Source: a bacterium (GTDB lineage Bacteria; Zixibacteria; MSB-5A5; GN15; FEB-12). Taken from it: DNA of 64,000 nucleotides. This document shows, piece after piece, positions 1,771 to 56,058 of the stretch. The translations under genes were made by a program, and so were the position numbers. Position 1 is the first letter of the stretch. Every line of letters begins with the position of its first letter. The notes under the pieces were generated by a model. That model worked only from the letters and a program-made list of their open reading frames with translations. It ran no database searches and had not been told where the DNA came from. Location of the stretch: assembly GCA_020444475.1 (NCBI GenBank), contig JAHLKV010000002.1, positions 248,001 to 312,000 on the forward strand, written 5' to 3'.

Positions 1771-4341
1771 CTATTTGGCTGCCGTGAGCACGAAATTGAT
1801 ATCGTTTACCACCGCGCCACCATCGATCGGTGCAACCTCGAACTCGATCTGCGCCGGAATCGACTGGTAGCCATACTGCTCCAGCTGGGCCGGATCGACA
1901 TAGGCGCGGTATTGCCCCGGAATCAGCCCCAGATAATAGAACTCACCATCGTTGAAACTGGTGACCTCGGTCACGGTCTCCTTCGACAGGTTATAGAGCA
2001 TTACTCGCACACCGCCGACTCCGACTTCGCCGAGTTCGGTTTCCCGCCTGACCCCGCCGTTGATTTCCCCCGCCATCACGATTGGGACTCTGATCTCGGT
2101 CACCATGTTGGGGCTGACGGTCACGCGGAAGTTCTCGTGGGTCGGCTTCAGAAGTGGATTATCGAGACTGTATTCGTCGATCTGCACCAGATAATTGTCG
2201 TAGGCGCGAAGGCGGTCGTAGTAGTAGACACGGTCCTTACCGGTTGGCCGTCCGCCCACTCCCTCGATCTTCGCCCGAAGACCGGGAAGATATTCATCGG
2301 AAGCATCATACTCGCCGTTGTAGTTGCGGTCGAGATACGGCCGTACTACCGCGGCGCCATAGCCGACCTGATTGCGCCGCTCGAAGCGTACGTTGCGGGC
2401 GGCGTGGTCGTACTGAATCGACCCGCGCTGCAACTGGTTCCAGCGTGTCTGGTTGTCCGAGCGCGACACCCGCGAGGTGAGACCGAGGAAGTCCGTAAAG
2501 ACATCGACCGTCACCGAAAACAGATCGGACCCGGTCAACTCGTTGCGTTCATAGGACAGAGTCGTCTGGGCGATCCGGAACAGTCGTTTCGAAAGAAACA
2601 CCGAGTAGCGGCTGATCTCATTCCGGCTGTGGTCATAATCGATCCGGAACTGCGGTCGTACCCATCGAAGGAAGTTGGGCGAGGCTATCAACTGGCTGTT
2701 GCTGGTCGTTGTCGTCCGGGTTTCGTTTCGCGAGAGCTTGGTGCGCCCGAGATAGTTCAACGAGATAAGGGGCAATGAGGCGCTCAGACCATACGACATA
2801 CTGGTCGTGTTCACATTGCGCCGTACTTCGTGCAGCACATTATACCGCAGTCCGAAATAGCGGCCCTTGTAGCGAATCGGCGCCGACGCCGAAAACGAAA
2901 GGCTGTAGTCCCGTTCGACGTAATTACGAATCGGATTCTCGAAATACCTGGTCGCCTCCGCACTCAGACTGACCACCGACAACTCCGTGAAGTTCGCCGC
3001 CAGACTCATCTCGTTATTCGGCGAAAACGACGTGTTCAGCGTCAGGTTGCCCAATGGCTGGAACGTGAGGTCGGCGGCCACTGTTACCTCGGAACTGTCT
3101 TCGGCGGAAACCGGAACGTCGGTCGCCAGGCCCGCAGTCAGATTGTCCAGCACACCGTAGTAGGCTGTCCCCTGTGCAAAGGTCCCGGTCTCCCGACCCT
3201 GGTCGGTGGAACCGCCGGCCACCGTGTATTCCACGGAGTTTTTCGGGATCAGGTTATATGGAATCGCAATAAACTGCTCTTCGGTGCGGATCTCACCGTT
3301 GGGACCGTACATCTTCAGCGTGATAAGCGATGACCCGTAGACGATATCGAGGTTGAAGTTGTATTCGCCGTTCTGGTCGGTATCCATAAAATCGGTCAGC
3401 TTGTTGTCGACATACAGCTCAACCTCCCAGCCCTCGCCGAGATAGCCGTTCAACCGAAGCGTCTGGAAGTACTTGCGCTGCACCTGCGGGCGATTGGTCA
3501 GAAGGCCACCGTCGAGAGATCGCGCCAGCGGACCGTTGGTCGTGATTCTCCCGGCCTCGGCCTGTGTCAGCCAACCGTTGTTCTCCACGTAGTAATGCCA
3601 CCGTGGAGACAGCCGGTCGGGCGAGAAACCGTTGACTGTATTGCCCGACGCTTCGAGTGTGAAGTCCCCGCCGAGCACAACGCCGCCGGCGGTCAGGTCG
3701 TAATAGTGGTTGTCTTCGAGAGGATTCGATGACAGCGTCCAGTCCAGCGCTCCTCCGGCCAGGTACTGTCGGCTCAGTGGAAGCTCACGAACATCGCGAA
3801 GGGCGACTGTTTCTCTCCGAAGTTTCTTCTGCGCCATTCTCCGCTCGAGCTTCTGCCAGGCCGGGAGATCTTTGTTGAGCTTCATGAAGACCCGCAGCAT
3901 CGAGAAGTCGAACTCCAGATCGAGTCCGAAGAGTTTGTTGAAGAGCTCGACACGAAGGTACAGCTCGTATTGCGTCTCGATACAGTCACCGGCCGTGAGA
4001 GGAAACTCCCCCAGATGCGTTCGGGCTCGATTGGCCCGTACGTCTATCTCATAGCGCTGGTTATTGCTGATGAAGAAGCCATAGGCGATGTGGTTGTCGA
4101 CATCGGTCCGGGCGTTGAGATCAAGCAGGCGGAAAGTCTCGATGAGCGGGAGATAGATCGCCTCACCGTCGTAGAGCACGAACAGGTCGGTCTTGAGCAG
4201 ACGCTGCACTTCGAACGTCACGACGATCTCTTCGTACTCCGGCTCCTGTGCATACGGGGCCGATGCCACTGCCAGCAGCAGCCCGCACAGTACTCCGGTG
4301 CGCACAGCCCCCGGCAGATGTAAGAAGGATCGTATGTTCAT
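1771..4341 (-). CDS. large usher-like outer-membrane protein
   Basis: An 856-residue secreted protein with a signal peptide ending near APYAQ (residue 32). The N-terminal ~150 residues look like a periplasmic domain. Residues ~190-690 are rich in alternating aromatic/polar beta strands, like a large outer-membrane barrel. The C-terminal part holds two carboxypeptidase-regulatory/SdrD-B-like beta domains, one with the calcium-loop-like DRNYNGEYDASDEYLPG and a later NDGEFYYLGLIPGQY. The size and architecture (N-domain, barrel, C-terminal Ig-like domains) match fimbrial ushers. The adjacent PapD-like chaperone and five pilin-like genes make an usher role likely. I cannot prove homology to PapC/FimD by eye. 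It is the last gene of the locus, 40 bp after the chaperone. An isolated barrel protein with surface domains is the alternative. Confidence 0.6.
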   Translation of the reverse strand: MNIRSFLHLPGAVRTGVLCGLLLAVASAPYAQEPEYEEIVVTFEVQRLLKTDLFVLYDGEAIYLPLIETFRLLDLNARTDVDNHIAYGFFISNNQRYEIDVRANRARTHLGEFPLTAGDCIETQYELYLRVELFNKLFGLDLEFDFSMLRVFMKLNKDLPAWQKLERRMAQKKLRRETVALRDVRELPLSRQYLAGGALDWTLSSNPLEDNHYYDLTAGGVVLGGDFTLEASGNTVNGFSPDRLSPRWHYYVENNGWLTQAEAGRITTNGPLARSLDGGLLTNRPQVQRKYFQTLRLNGYLGEGWEVELYVDNKLTDFMDTDQNGEYNFNLDIVYGSSLITLKMYGPNGEIRTEEQFIAIPYNLIPKNSVEYTVAGGSTDQGRETGTFAQGTAYYGVLDNLTAGLATDVPVSAEDSSEVTVAADLTFQPLGNLTLNTSFSPNNEMSLAANFTELSVVSLSAEATRYFENPIRNYVERDYSLSFSASAPIRYKGRYFGLRYNVLHEVRRNVNTTSMSYGLSASLPLISLNYLGRTKLSRNETRTTTTSNSQLIASPNFLRWVRPQFRIDYDHSRNEISRYSVFLSKRLFRIAQTTLSYERNELTGSDLFSVTVDVFTDFLGLTSRVSRSDNQTRWNQLQRGSIQYDHAARNVRFERRNQVGYGAAVVRPYLDRNYNGEYDASDEYLPGLRAKIEGVGGRPTGKDRVYYYDRLRAYDNYLVQIDEYSLDNPLLKPTHENFRVTVSPNMVTEIRVPIVMAGEINGGVRRETELGEVGVGGVRVMLYNLSKETVTEVTSFNDGEFYYLGLIPGQYRAYVDPAQLEQYGYQSIPAQIEFEVAPIDGGAVVNDINFVLTAAK

Positions 4342-52177: not shown

Positions 52178-52193
52178 TACTGAGGTGGGTGCT

Positions 52194-52784
52194 ATGGCTG
52201 TTGTGGATCGAAAAGCACAGTTGGTTGCCGAAGCGACGCGGCTGTTTAGCCGTCGCGGATTCGACCAGGTGACGGTGAAGGAATTGGCCCGCATGTGTGG
52301 CATTACGGAGCCGGCGGTCTATCGCCATTTTCCTTCGAAGGATGCTATTTACAACGCGGTGCTCGATTCTCTCGAAGAGCGTATGGATTGCAGTACCTTG
52401 TTCGCACAACTCGAGCACGAGAGTGACGTCGAGGTTCTGCTTCGAGGAGTCGCCTCCCATGTGATCAGCTTCTTCACGCGCAACGACGACATGTACCGTT
52501 TGCTGTTGTTCTCAGCGCTCAAGGAGCATACCAAGGCGAGGAAGGTGTACGACATTATCCGCGGCACCTACGTCCGTTTTCTGGTCACGCAGTTTGACCG
52601 GCTGTTTCAGGAGGGGGTAATCATCGAAAAGCACAACGAAATTACGGCGCGCTGTTTTGTCGGCATGGTATTCGACTGCGCTTTGGGACGGACCCTCTGG
52701 AGGGGGATGCAGGGCAAGCAATTCCGTCCCGAAGACGTAGTCGCCAATAATGTCCCGATTTACGCGCGCGGACTTCGCAAATAA
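52194..52784 (+). CDS. TetR-family transcriptional regulator
   Basis: A 196-residue TetR protein. The N-terminal HTH is VTVKELARMCGITEPAVYRHFPSKDAI (helix residues within 26-52 of the protein). The C-terminal helical domain for ligand and dimer contacts has LLRGVASHVISFFTRN and LFQEGVIIEKHNEITARC. The start at 52194 has a GAGGTG site; a GTG at 52185 is less likely. It is 49 bp upstream of the decaheme cytochrome gene on the same strand, so it probably controls that module and itself. Confidence 0.92.
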   Translation: MAVVDRKAQLVAEATRLFSRRGFDQVTVKELARMCGITEPAVYRHFPSKDAIYNAVLDSLEERMDCSTLFAQLEHESDVEVLLRGVASHVISFFTRNDDMYRLLLFSALKEHTKARKVYDIIRGTYVRFLVTQFDRLFQEGVIIEKHNEITARCFVGMVFDCALGRTLWRGMQGKQFRPEDVVANNVPIYARGLRK

Positions 52785-52833: not shown

Positions 52834-53796
52834 ATGACTGGGTTTGATCGTACAGACGGCCCGCGTCCGCCACTGCTCATTCGACTGGCAGTGCTGCTGA
52901 TTGCAGCCGTCTGTCTACCGTCCACAGCCCTTTTGGCCGGCGACATCGAAAACGATGTCTGCGCCGGGTGTCACGAGGATGTCGCGGCAGGGTTCACCAT
53001 GACCGCCCACGGCGTCTACTTCACGGACCGTCCCGCCCTGGTGGACTACGGTTGTGAATCGTGTCACGGTTCGGGTCTTGCGCATGTCGAGGATCCCAAC
53101 CCGGGCAACATCATCAACCCCGCCAACACCGATCAGTTCGGTTCGTCGATGCTGTGCATGACCTGTCATGACGACGGCGCGATGGACGACTGGGACTTTT
53201 CGGCGCATAACGGGGCTGATGTCAACTGCGCCAGCTGTCACAGCGTGCACGCCACGTACGACACCAGACAGGCGCTCAAGAAGGCCACCCCCGACCTGTG
53301 CTACGACTGCCATACCGACGTCAAGGCGCAGACGATGATGCCGTCGCATCATCCCATCGCCGAGGGCAAGATGTCCTGCAATGACTGTCATAACCCGCAC
53401 GGCGGGAGCGCCAAACTGACGCAGGACTTTACCGGTCGCGAGCTTTGTTTCACCTGTCACGCCGACAAGGAAGGGCCGTATGTCTATGAGCACGCCCCGG
53501 TGAACGAAGATTGCGGTCTGTGCCACACCCCGCACGGTTCGGTGGCCAATAACCTGCTGGTGCAGAACGAACCGACCTTGTGTTTGAACTGCCACGCCAT
53601 GCACTTCCATGCCACGGTCGAGTCGAACGACGGACCGTTTATCGTCCCGCAGAATCAGTCGCGCAACAGCGTTTCGACCGCGGACGGGTGGAAGAAGGGC
53701 TTCTTGACCCGGTGCACATCGTGTCATTCCATGATTCACGGTTCGGATATGCCTTCGCAGTCAATCTCAACCGGCGGCAACGCCCTCACCCGCTAA
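52834..53796 (+). CDS. decaheme c-type cytochrome, MtrA/DmsE-like
   Basis: A 320-residue periplasmic cytochrome with a signal peptide ending near STALLAGD. Ten C-x2-C-H haem sites can be counted: CAGCH, CESCH, CMTCH, CASCH, CYDCH, CNDCH, CFTCH, CGLCH, CLNCH and CTSCH. The number and length match MtrA/DmsE proteins, which insert in a porin and wire electrons across the outer membrane. A GGGAGG site precedes the ATG. The barrel gene follows after 10 bp. No outer-surface cytochrome or reductase gene is in the window, so the terminal acceptor is unknown. Confidence 0.93.
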   Translation: MTGFDRTDGPRPPLLIRLAVLLIAAVCLPSTALLAGDIENDVCAGCHEDVAAGFTMTAHGVYFTDRPALVDYGCESCHGSGLAHVEDPNPGNIINPANTDQFGSSMLCMTCHDDGAMDDWDFSAHNGADVNCASCHSVHATYDTRQALKKATPDLCYDCHTDVKAQTMMPSHHPIAEGKMSCNDCHNPHGGSAKLTQDFTGRELCFTCHADKEGPYVYEHAPVNEDCGLCHTPHGSVANNLLVQNEPTLCLNCHAMHFHATVESNDGPFIVPQNQSRNSVSTADGWKKGFLTRCTSCHSMIHGSDMPSQSISTGGNALTR

Positions 53797-53806
53797 GGAG
53801 GATGCC

Positions 53807-56005
53807 ATGAAGAGACTGCTATCTGTCATCGCGCTGGCCCTCCTGATTGTTGCAGGGCCATCACTGCTGTCGGCACAGGACGGTGAGCTTACCCAGGAAT
53901 ACTCGATCTGGATCGGCTCGCACTACACGACTTTCTCGGATTACACCAAGAAGGTCGGCGAGTACAATGTCGGACTCGACGAATACATGCCCGAGTTTTC
54001 GGTCAACTACCTCGGTATCGGCACCGACAACCTGTTCCGTCTCGACGGACATTTCTATGACAAGTACAATATCGACGGTATCGTCGACGTCACGATCGCG
54101 GATCGGTTCTCGTTCGGCGTCCAGTATAGTTCGCTCGTTCACCGGCTCGGCCAGGACAAGCTGGAGTACATGTCGGCGCGTGAGTATTTCGAGGACACCG
54201 ATACGTACGGCGGCAAGATCCTGACCCACGAGCTGCTCGATCCGGATGCGGACTACGACCTGCACCGTCAGGAGATACTCAGCGAGCTGAGCGTTCTTCT
54301 GTCGCGCAAGAACAACATCCGCATGACGGCGGCGCATCGGACGATTATGACCGACGGCCATGCGCAGAGTCTGTCCAACACGCACTGTTTCTCCTGCCAC
54401 GCGACATCGAGAAGCGTCGAGGTTCAGAATCGCACCCACGAGCTGCAGGCGGGGATTCAGGCCGATCTCACCGAAGAGCTGACGGTCGGCTATCAGTTCG
54501 ACTACCGCTCGTTTGATCCGCAGTCGCCGGCGGCCGAGGCCTATTTCGACCAGGCCAAGCATCCGGTGAACGGCGGCTCCGGCGCCGAGTTCAGTTCGCG
54601 CCAGGTGTACGATGACACGTCGGTGGTGATCAACCAGGTGCCGAAAAACGAGAAGATCGGCAACAAGATCCGCGTCAAGGGCAAGCTCGGTGACAAGACT
54701 CGTTTTGCGACCTCGGTCGGCTACAACCGGGTCGAGAACAAGTACACCGAGATCTACTCCGGCGCCTGGACCGGCGCGGCGAATATCAGCACCGTGCTGT
54801 CGCCGACCACTCGTCTGGTGATCAAAGCGACCGGCGTGCGGATCAAAGGCACCGATGACTATTACATCGACCTGCCGATCTTCCGTGATGGCCGGCCGGG
54901 TCCGGCCGGCAGCCGTCCGAGTTTTGACTACACCCGGTTGTCGTCGCTGGATCGTACCGACGGTCGCGGTTCGGCCGAACTGACGCACAAACTCAATCCG
55001 AGAATGACGTTGTCGGTTCTGGCCGGCTACGAGCGAATAAAGCGGTACAACTATCCCGATGAGGACTATGTTACCGGCCGCCTGATCGGCCAGGGCAAAC
55101 TTCGCTACCGCAAGTCAACGAACTTCTCCGGCTGGATGAAGTATCGGTTCGAGAAGACCTCCGATCCGTTCGTCTCCGGCAAGGGCTTGTTCGAAGCTCG
55201 CGGGTATGAAGAGCTCAGCCGCGACCTGCGGAATTCTCCGGCGCCGTTTACGTTCTACTACGAACGCGAAGCGTTGCGCTACCAGGCGATCACGACCGCT
55301 CCGACCGACGAACATGAGATCGAACTTCGCGGGGTATTCAACCCCAATCCGAAGGTCAATGTCAATCTCGGTCTGAGATACAACTACAGCAAGAACGGCG
55401 ATCTGGACTCGCTCGATGTCAAGCAGACAACGATGGTTCCGTCGCTGGGTATTAATCTGATGCCAAACGCACAGTGGGTGCTTTCCGCGGGCTATACGAT
55501 GCACTATGACAAGTCTCGCGGACCGATCACTGTCGCACTCTTCGATGGGTGAGCAGGCCATCTTTTCGACGCCGGGAGCGTCGACAGCATTATGTATGTT
55601 GAGCATTATGGCTCGCTTTCAACCATGGAAGACTATACGACGACTTCTCACAGTGTGTTTGCAAACGTCTCTTACACCGCCAGCGACAAGATGCGCCTGT
55701 TCGGTACGATCGGGTTCACCAAGGCGACGGCGGAGTTGAATGAGGTGCTGATGCCGGAAGTGTCCGCCGAAGTGGCGACCGATCTGTCGCATCAGGACTT
55801 CACGTTCGAAGAGATGTACACGTACTCGGATCTCGACTACACCATCATGCAGCTGACCTTCGGCGGCGAGTACATGATTGCCCCGAATGTCACGTGGACG
55901 GCTGATATCGATTACGCCGACTTCGCGGACGATCAGCCGTATGTGTACGGTGACGAGACGGGCTCGATGTTCGTCATTCGATCAGGGGTACGTTTCGACT
56001 TCTAA
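53807..56005 (+). CDS. MtrB/PioB-like outer-membrane barrel, interrupted by in-frame TGA
   Basis: An exported barrel with a signal peptide ending near SLLSAQ. The gene is read as one frame of 732 codons: codons 1-581, TGA at 55550-55552 (position 582), then the same frame to 56005, ending RSGVRFDF with the terminal Phe of outer-membrane barrels. The first part alone lacks a barrel end, so the two pieces belong together. Strands alternate aromatic and polar residues through the length. A CFSCH motif (residues 194-198) could bind a haem. An AAGGAGG site precedes the ATG. It is the barrel partner of the decaheme cytochrome. The TGA could be a point mutation, an assembly error or a recoded codon. 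Confidence 0.8.
55550..55584 (+). other. in-frame TGA followed by a hairpin
   Basis: After the TGA (55550-55552), in the frame of the barrel gene, a perfect 7-bp stem TCGACGC/GCGTCGA (55566-55572, 55578-55584) has the loop CGGGA. The loop starts 21 bases after the TGA. This is the general shape of a bacterial SECIS element (stem, short loop with an early G, 16-37 bases from UGA), but such hairpins also arise by chance. Confidence 0.45.
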
Positions 56006-56030: not shown

Positions 56031-56058
56031 GCCGCCCGGAGATCCGGGCGGCTTTTTT
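56031..56058 (+). terminator. Rho-independent terminator of the cytochrome-barrel operon
   Basis: The perfect 9-bp stem GCCGCCCGG/CCGGGCGGC (56031-56039, 56044-56052) is followed by six T. It lies 25 bp after the stop at 56005, which supports 56005, not 55552, as the end of the barrel gene. Confidence 0.93.

Follow-up and report, generated by a model that had tools for sequence, protein, structure and literature searches.

The window, the 64,000-nucleotide stretch of DNA analysed here, contains a GSU2204-family outer-membrane barrel gene (53807-56005, plus strand) whose in-frame TGA (55550-55552) is, as judged from sequence comparisons, very probably a genuine recoded codon, making the gene product a selenoprotein of this family. 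With the TGA, codon 582, read as selenocysteine (Sec), the protein would have 732 residues. The open reading frame runs from an ATG at 53807 to a TAA at 56003-56005 with this TGA as its sole internal stop, just as a first-pass annotation had described it, and the protein ends in ...RSGVRFDF, which bears out the C-terminal Phe noted there (RFDF, then TAA). The terminator reported 3' of the gene is present as an intrinsic terminator-like element (56031-56058, plus strand), read from the sequence as a 9-bp G+C stem (56031-56052) followed by six T. At the other end, approximately residues 1-23 (53807-53875, plus strand) are a likely signal peptide, inferred from the sequence and the established signal-peptide pattern. 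Residues 193-198 (54383-54400, plus strand) form the sequence HCFSCH, a CXXCH motif and putative site for one heme c, which is invariant in every homologue covering that region.

We searched 61 whole genomes (the window's own and others of the same genus, family and order) for the barrel and found a homologue in 37, where each near-full-length copy has exactly one internal stop, a TGA. The TGA occupies an identical alignment column in 30 of 30 loci, within the motif [VI]A[LMV][FM]DG-U-[AG], and the aligned homologues have a conserved [AG][AG]H directly after it. A named genome collection was searched with a pattern that also allowed a Cys version of the motif. It gave 22 loci, most of them labelled Candidatus Zixiibacteriota or candidate division GN15 and a few labelled oddly; TGA is found at the site in 22/22 loci. 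At the scale of the phylum, 57/132 genomes match, and each match covering the site has TGA, none being stop-free there. The codon was also read directly in 51 distinct homologous sequences across Ca. Zixiibacteriota (GN15): all have TGA, and no Cys, Trp or other sense codon was found at the site among these distinct genes of the phylum. Homologues with the conserved TGA diverge down to 33-35% protein identity, and a stop other than TGA never occurs at the site among homologues. A Cys form was found neither in the phylum nor in the pattern scan of genome contigs, through which alone other phyla were sampled. The first-pass annotation had taken Trp, Arg or Gly in homologues as the mark of a mutation or error; the alignment has a conserved TGA and none of these residues at the site, which favours Sec recoding.

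The sequence downstream of the TGA is also constrained as protein. In the closest pair to the window, identity is 74% after the TGA versus 75% before it, with dN/dS of 0.11 and 0.21, respectively, and dN/dS is likewise low in the remaining pairs for which the estimate is usable. As judged by these values, purifying selection persists downstream of the TGA, indicating that reading continues past it.

A bacterial SECIS hairpin (stem TCGACGC, loop CGGGA, stem GCGTCGA; 55566-55584, plus strand), covarying across homologues, is predicted just beyond the TGA. The first base of its perfect 7-bp stem is the 14th past the TGA, in agreement with the first-pass annotation. The published rules for bacterial SECIS elements (bSECIS) are a 4-16 bp stem, a 3-9 nt loop with G in the first two loop bases, a spacing of 16-37 nt and an MFE at or below -7.5 (PMC13188914). 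The window hairpin satisfies all four constraints, with a 7-bp stem, a 5-nt loop carrying G at position 2, a loop start at the 21st nt after the UGA and an energy of about -10.7 kcal/mol, and is the same as the model in position, spacing, stem, loop length and loop G. Its folding energy is no better than that of shuffled sequence (z = -0.28), and for this reason a single-sequence hairpin could not decide the Sec question; what gives the hairpin its significance is solely its conservation and covariation among relatives. We analysed covariation in 51 sequences (helix columns 20-26 with 32-38; 500 shuffles). Helix cells are paired in 85.7% of cases versus 65.7% in shuffles, 72 cells are changed on both sides of the stem versus 22.7 expected from shuffles, and the covariation score is 0.51 versus 0.167, a score that 0/500 shuffles reach. 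Compensatory changes are seen in 6/7 stem pairs, and the covariation is lost once the partner is shifted by 1-3 columns (score 0.03-0.04 for a one-column slide). The stem overlaps codons with variable amino acids and gaps in the protein alignment, and protein constraint therefore fails to account for the pairing. The loose fit to the bacterial SECIS pattern suggested earlier is thus strengthened, since the hairpin both conforms to the published rules and covaries across relatives. The window differs from most relatives in its loop, CGGGA rather than CGUGA, CGUGG or CGGUG, and in having one codon fewer between the UGA and the stem, and a subset of homologues retains an A-A mismatch mid-stem. 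One homologue (L088:767-814, minus strand) has a differently placed hairpin of 7 bp with loop GGTC, its stem starting from the 11th base after the TGA, which is out of register with the other homologues, yet SECIS-like. An Rfam search of the window returned nothing at the gathering score and is uninformative for or against a SECIS.

A search of the genome for sel genes found selA, selB, selD and tRNA-Sec(UCA) all present: selB (G000:C1:344236-346095) adjoins selA (G000:C1:346130-347467), a tRNA-Sec of 69 bits with ARAGORN anticodon tca lies in the same region (G000:C1:358198-358290), and selD (L104; G000:C3:60870-61796) is interrupted in frame by a TGA, with CAG-U-ASKLAP as its context, which is consistent with the genome's SelD being itself Sec-containing. 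Across the 61 genomes, selB scores over the cut-off in 53 and tRNA-Sec over the gathering score in 48. TGA is the true terminal stop in six homologues (L014, L015, L022, L030, L088 and L102), and each gene has one internal TGA, so the earlier statement that the code is not globally altered holds.

Based on these observations, we regard mutation, assembly error and an altered genetic code as excluded as causes of the TGA. The alternative to recoding is that TGG, or some other sense codon, was mutated to TGA in this strain, or that the assembly is wrong; the first-pass annotation had offered the TGG change and the assembly error. A single base change would be enough to create the TGA, and the window hairpin alone is no stronger than chance. 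The same codon is, however, TGA in 51 distinct genes and in all covering homologues of divergent, independently assembled genomes, with no sense codon in any of them, the hairpin covaries and the sel genes are present, which rules this explanation out as vanishingly improbable. A global or lineage-specific code change (UGA as Trp or Gly, codes 4 and 25) or a nonsense suppressor would agree with UGA being clearly read through in the barrel gene, but is extremely improbable given that (i) there is a single TGA per gene, always at the same codon, (ii) the six homologues named above use TGA as a real stop and (iii) a dedicated tRNA-Sec, SelA, SelB and a SECIS are present. We also find it very improbable that the UGA is a true stop giving a 581-residue product, with the downstream frame (ATG 55592) being a separate protein or a relic: this ATG is in the same frame 39 bases past the TGA, but the conserved frame links both parts directly through the conserved [AG][AG]H, the second part carries strands 22-26 and the terminal Phe, and no non-TGA stop ever appears at the site.

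By sequence, the protein matches the NCBIfam profile NF041027 with 536.1 bits (cut-off 350), residues 10-581 aligning with positions 1-580 of the 580 in the profile, and the match ends at the residue just before the Sec codon. This GSU2204 family, named after a Geobacter sulfurreducens gene, shares with the window gene the profile match, the CXXCH motif and the in-frame UGA, and all 25 aligned Zixibacteria members match the profile. GSU2204 itself comes from another phylum than the window gene (Zixiibacteriota), and the likeness is known here via the family profile. TIGR03509 (MtrB/PioB) stays below threshold (16.9 bits, cut-off 240), and a Pfam search of the barrel gave no significant family. 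The AlphaFold2 model (mean pLDDT 72.9) has 26 strands, of which strands 22-26, together with the terminal Phe, are encoded downstream of the TGA; its confidence is low in the Sec loop (pLDDT under 50 over residues 577-604) and also at residues 195-197. Among solved structures, Foldseek finds the best match in MtrB of the Mtr complex (6r2q_B; E 1.2e-20, TM 0.63/0.70). The label "MtrB-like" in the first-pass annotation accordingly stands for the fold and fails for the sequence: the barrel is MtrB-like in fold and gene context, but GSU2204-family by sequence. With MtrB/PioB (TIGR03509, PDB 6r2q) it shares a 26-strand barrel by model and adjacency to a DmsE/MtrA-type decaheme cytochrome gene, and it differs in its 11% identity and in having CXXCH and Sec in predicted surface loops. 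ExtKL (NF040886), a Sec protein of a Geobacter cytochrome cluster tied to extracellular electron transfer (PMC5877670, PMC13188914), is multiheme cytochrome-like and not a barrel as in the window.

The gene 5' of the barrel (52834-53796, plus strand) encodes a GSU2203-family decaheme c-type cytochrome with 10 CXXCH, the presumed partner inside the barrel (348.2 bits against NF041028, cut-off 325); its reading frame extends as far as 52750, and 52834 was taken as the probable start on the basis of the signal peptide. A gene for a TetR-family regulator (52185-52784, plus strand) lies just 5' of the cytochrome-barrel pair. All loci whose upstream flank is complete have a ten-CXXCH gene 5' of the barrel, with L028 as the one exception. 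Downstream of the barrel, the window has no surface cytochrome gene. Many relatives (L008, L011, L013, L016, L019, L021-L027, L029, L054, L055 and L096) carry a large multiheme cytochrome reading frame 3' of the barrel, with 11 to 17 CXXCH within the flank. This frame may encode a surface cytochrome like MtrC; neither the window nor its closest homologue locus, L002, has it within 1.5 kb downstream.

We propose that SelB and Sec-tRNA(UCA), guided by the hairpin 14 bases downstream, would insert Sec at the UGA (55550-55552), and that translation would then run on to the TAA ending at 56005; comparative evidence strongly supports both insertion and readthrough. The product would be secreted and form a GSU2204-family outer-membrane barrel of 26 strands, sheathing the upstream-encoded decaheme cytochrome as MtrB sheathes MtrA and letting electrons cross the outer membrane. 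Fold, operon and family make such an outer-membrane electron conduit of barrel and decaheme cytochrome the most likely arrangement. Zixibacteria from hydrothermal metagenomes are reported to carry MtrAB-type genes (PMC9769843).

The topology was derived by strand counting on the model, taking the N-terminus as periplasmic. In this count the long loops lie outside the cell and the turns of two to four residues face the periplasm, and HCFSCH, after strand 7, and Sec, after strand 21, are both placed on the extracellular side. Conservation is 0.52 in extracellular loops versus 0.44 in strands, and 26 of the 46 invariant residues are in extracellular loops and 0 in periplasmic turns. The only Cys/Sec positions conserved throughout the mature barrel are Cys194 and Cys197 (CFSCH) and Sec582, all three of which the model predicts in surface-side loops, and we hypothesize that a heme-Sec contact may form between the CFSCH and Sec582 loops.

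Electrons would reach the decaheme cytochrome within the barrel and exit at its outer face. The extracellular side would be the conduit exit, where the barrel-bound heme c (or CXXC dithiol) and the selenolate may join the last transfer, the final acceptor being a mineral, a metal ion or another cytochrome; we offer such an exit site tentatively, as possible but well short of probable. That the barrel is a redox-active terminal module, in which the CFSCH heme c and Sec582 form the exit site and replace MtrC, we consider unlikely; the barrel is proposed in place of MtrC because no surface cytochrome gene lies beside the conduit in the window. In Geobacter sulfurreducens, GSU2203 and GSU2204 transcripts are ~1.5- to 2.7-fold more abundant in the presence of hematite or magnetite (PMC4070692), a response that points towards electron transfer to minerals. 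Alternatively, the protein may be a selenoprotein in which Sec serves thiol/selenol redox or assembly (e.g. with the CXXC) rather than electron exit, a reading that also allows oxyanion uptake or reduction and that competes only with the speculative last step. It is quite plausible, if somewhat short of probable: C194, C197 and U582 as the only conserved chalcogens would suit it, as would the lack of a surface cytochrome gene downstream of the barrel in the window, whereas the decaheme gene upstream in nearly every locus, the fold match to MtrB and the rise of GSU2203/GSU2204 transcripts with hematite and magnetite in Geobacter (PMC4070692) argue for electron exit.

The barrel of MtrB is seen as insulation that sheathes its cytochrome. 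In the barrel described here, the only conserved chalcogens are the CXXCH pair and the invariant Sec, which suggests that this barrel takes part in redox chemistry, and the fact that Sec is kept across the phylum, with no Cys in its place, implies a step for which sulfur is poorly suited. Recoding as such is already known in the family, since a 2026 review names NF041027 among prokaryotic selenoprotein families (PMC13188914). Nearly all selenoprotein families have Cys-containing homologues (PMC13188914), whereas none was found for the Zixibacteria barrel. The review credits a PLoS Genet 2008 paper for the NF041027 family (PMC13188914); the main text of that paper contains no mention of MtrB, GSU, CXXCH, cytochrome or outer membrane. 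Our literature search found no paper on GSU2204-family selenoproteins in Zixibacteria, and the sources found have the GSU2204 family only as a table entry and a profile, with no functional paper. The barrel is a well-supported new GSU2204-family selenoprotein, neither new as a sequence nor a new kind; what is added here, and did not appear in the literature searched, is the phylum-wide conservation of the TGA in Zixibacteria without a Cys form, the covarying SECIS and the predicted surface-side chalcogens. Annotation is likely to split GSU2204-family genes, or to cut them short, at the UGA.

The function of the barrel is dispensable, since ~57% of the Zixibacteria genomes searched have no barrel match. 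Two loci hold remnants of the gene. In the sister genome G001, the nearest relative with a 99%-complete genome, two fragments (L081, G001:C5:152500-158500; ~3111-3526) are all that is left of the barrel beside the conserved TetR gene. They lack the stretch surrounding the Sec codon, and a decaheme reading frame is not evident there; this is a recent barrel loss. In G009 (L082, G009:C2:9000-13500), a decayed barrel copy carries a TAG immediately ahead of the conserved TGA, as well as an internal deletion, and the decaheme gene beside it looks intact; here the barrel decays before the decaheme gene.
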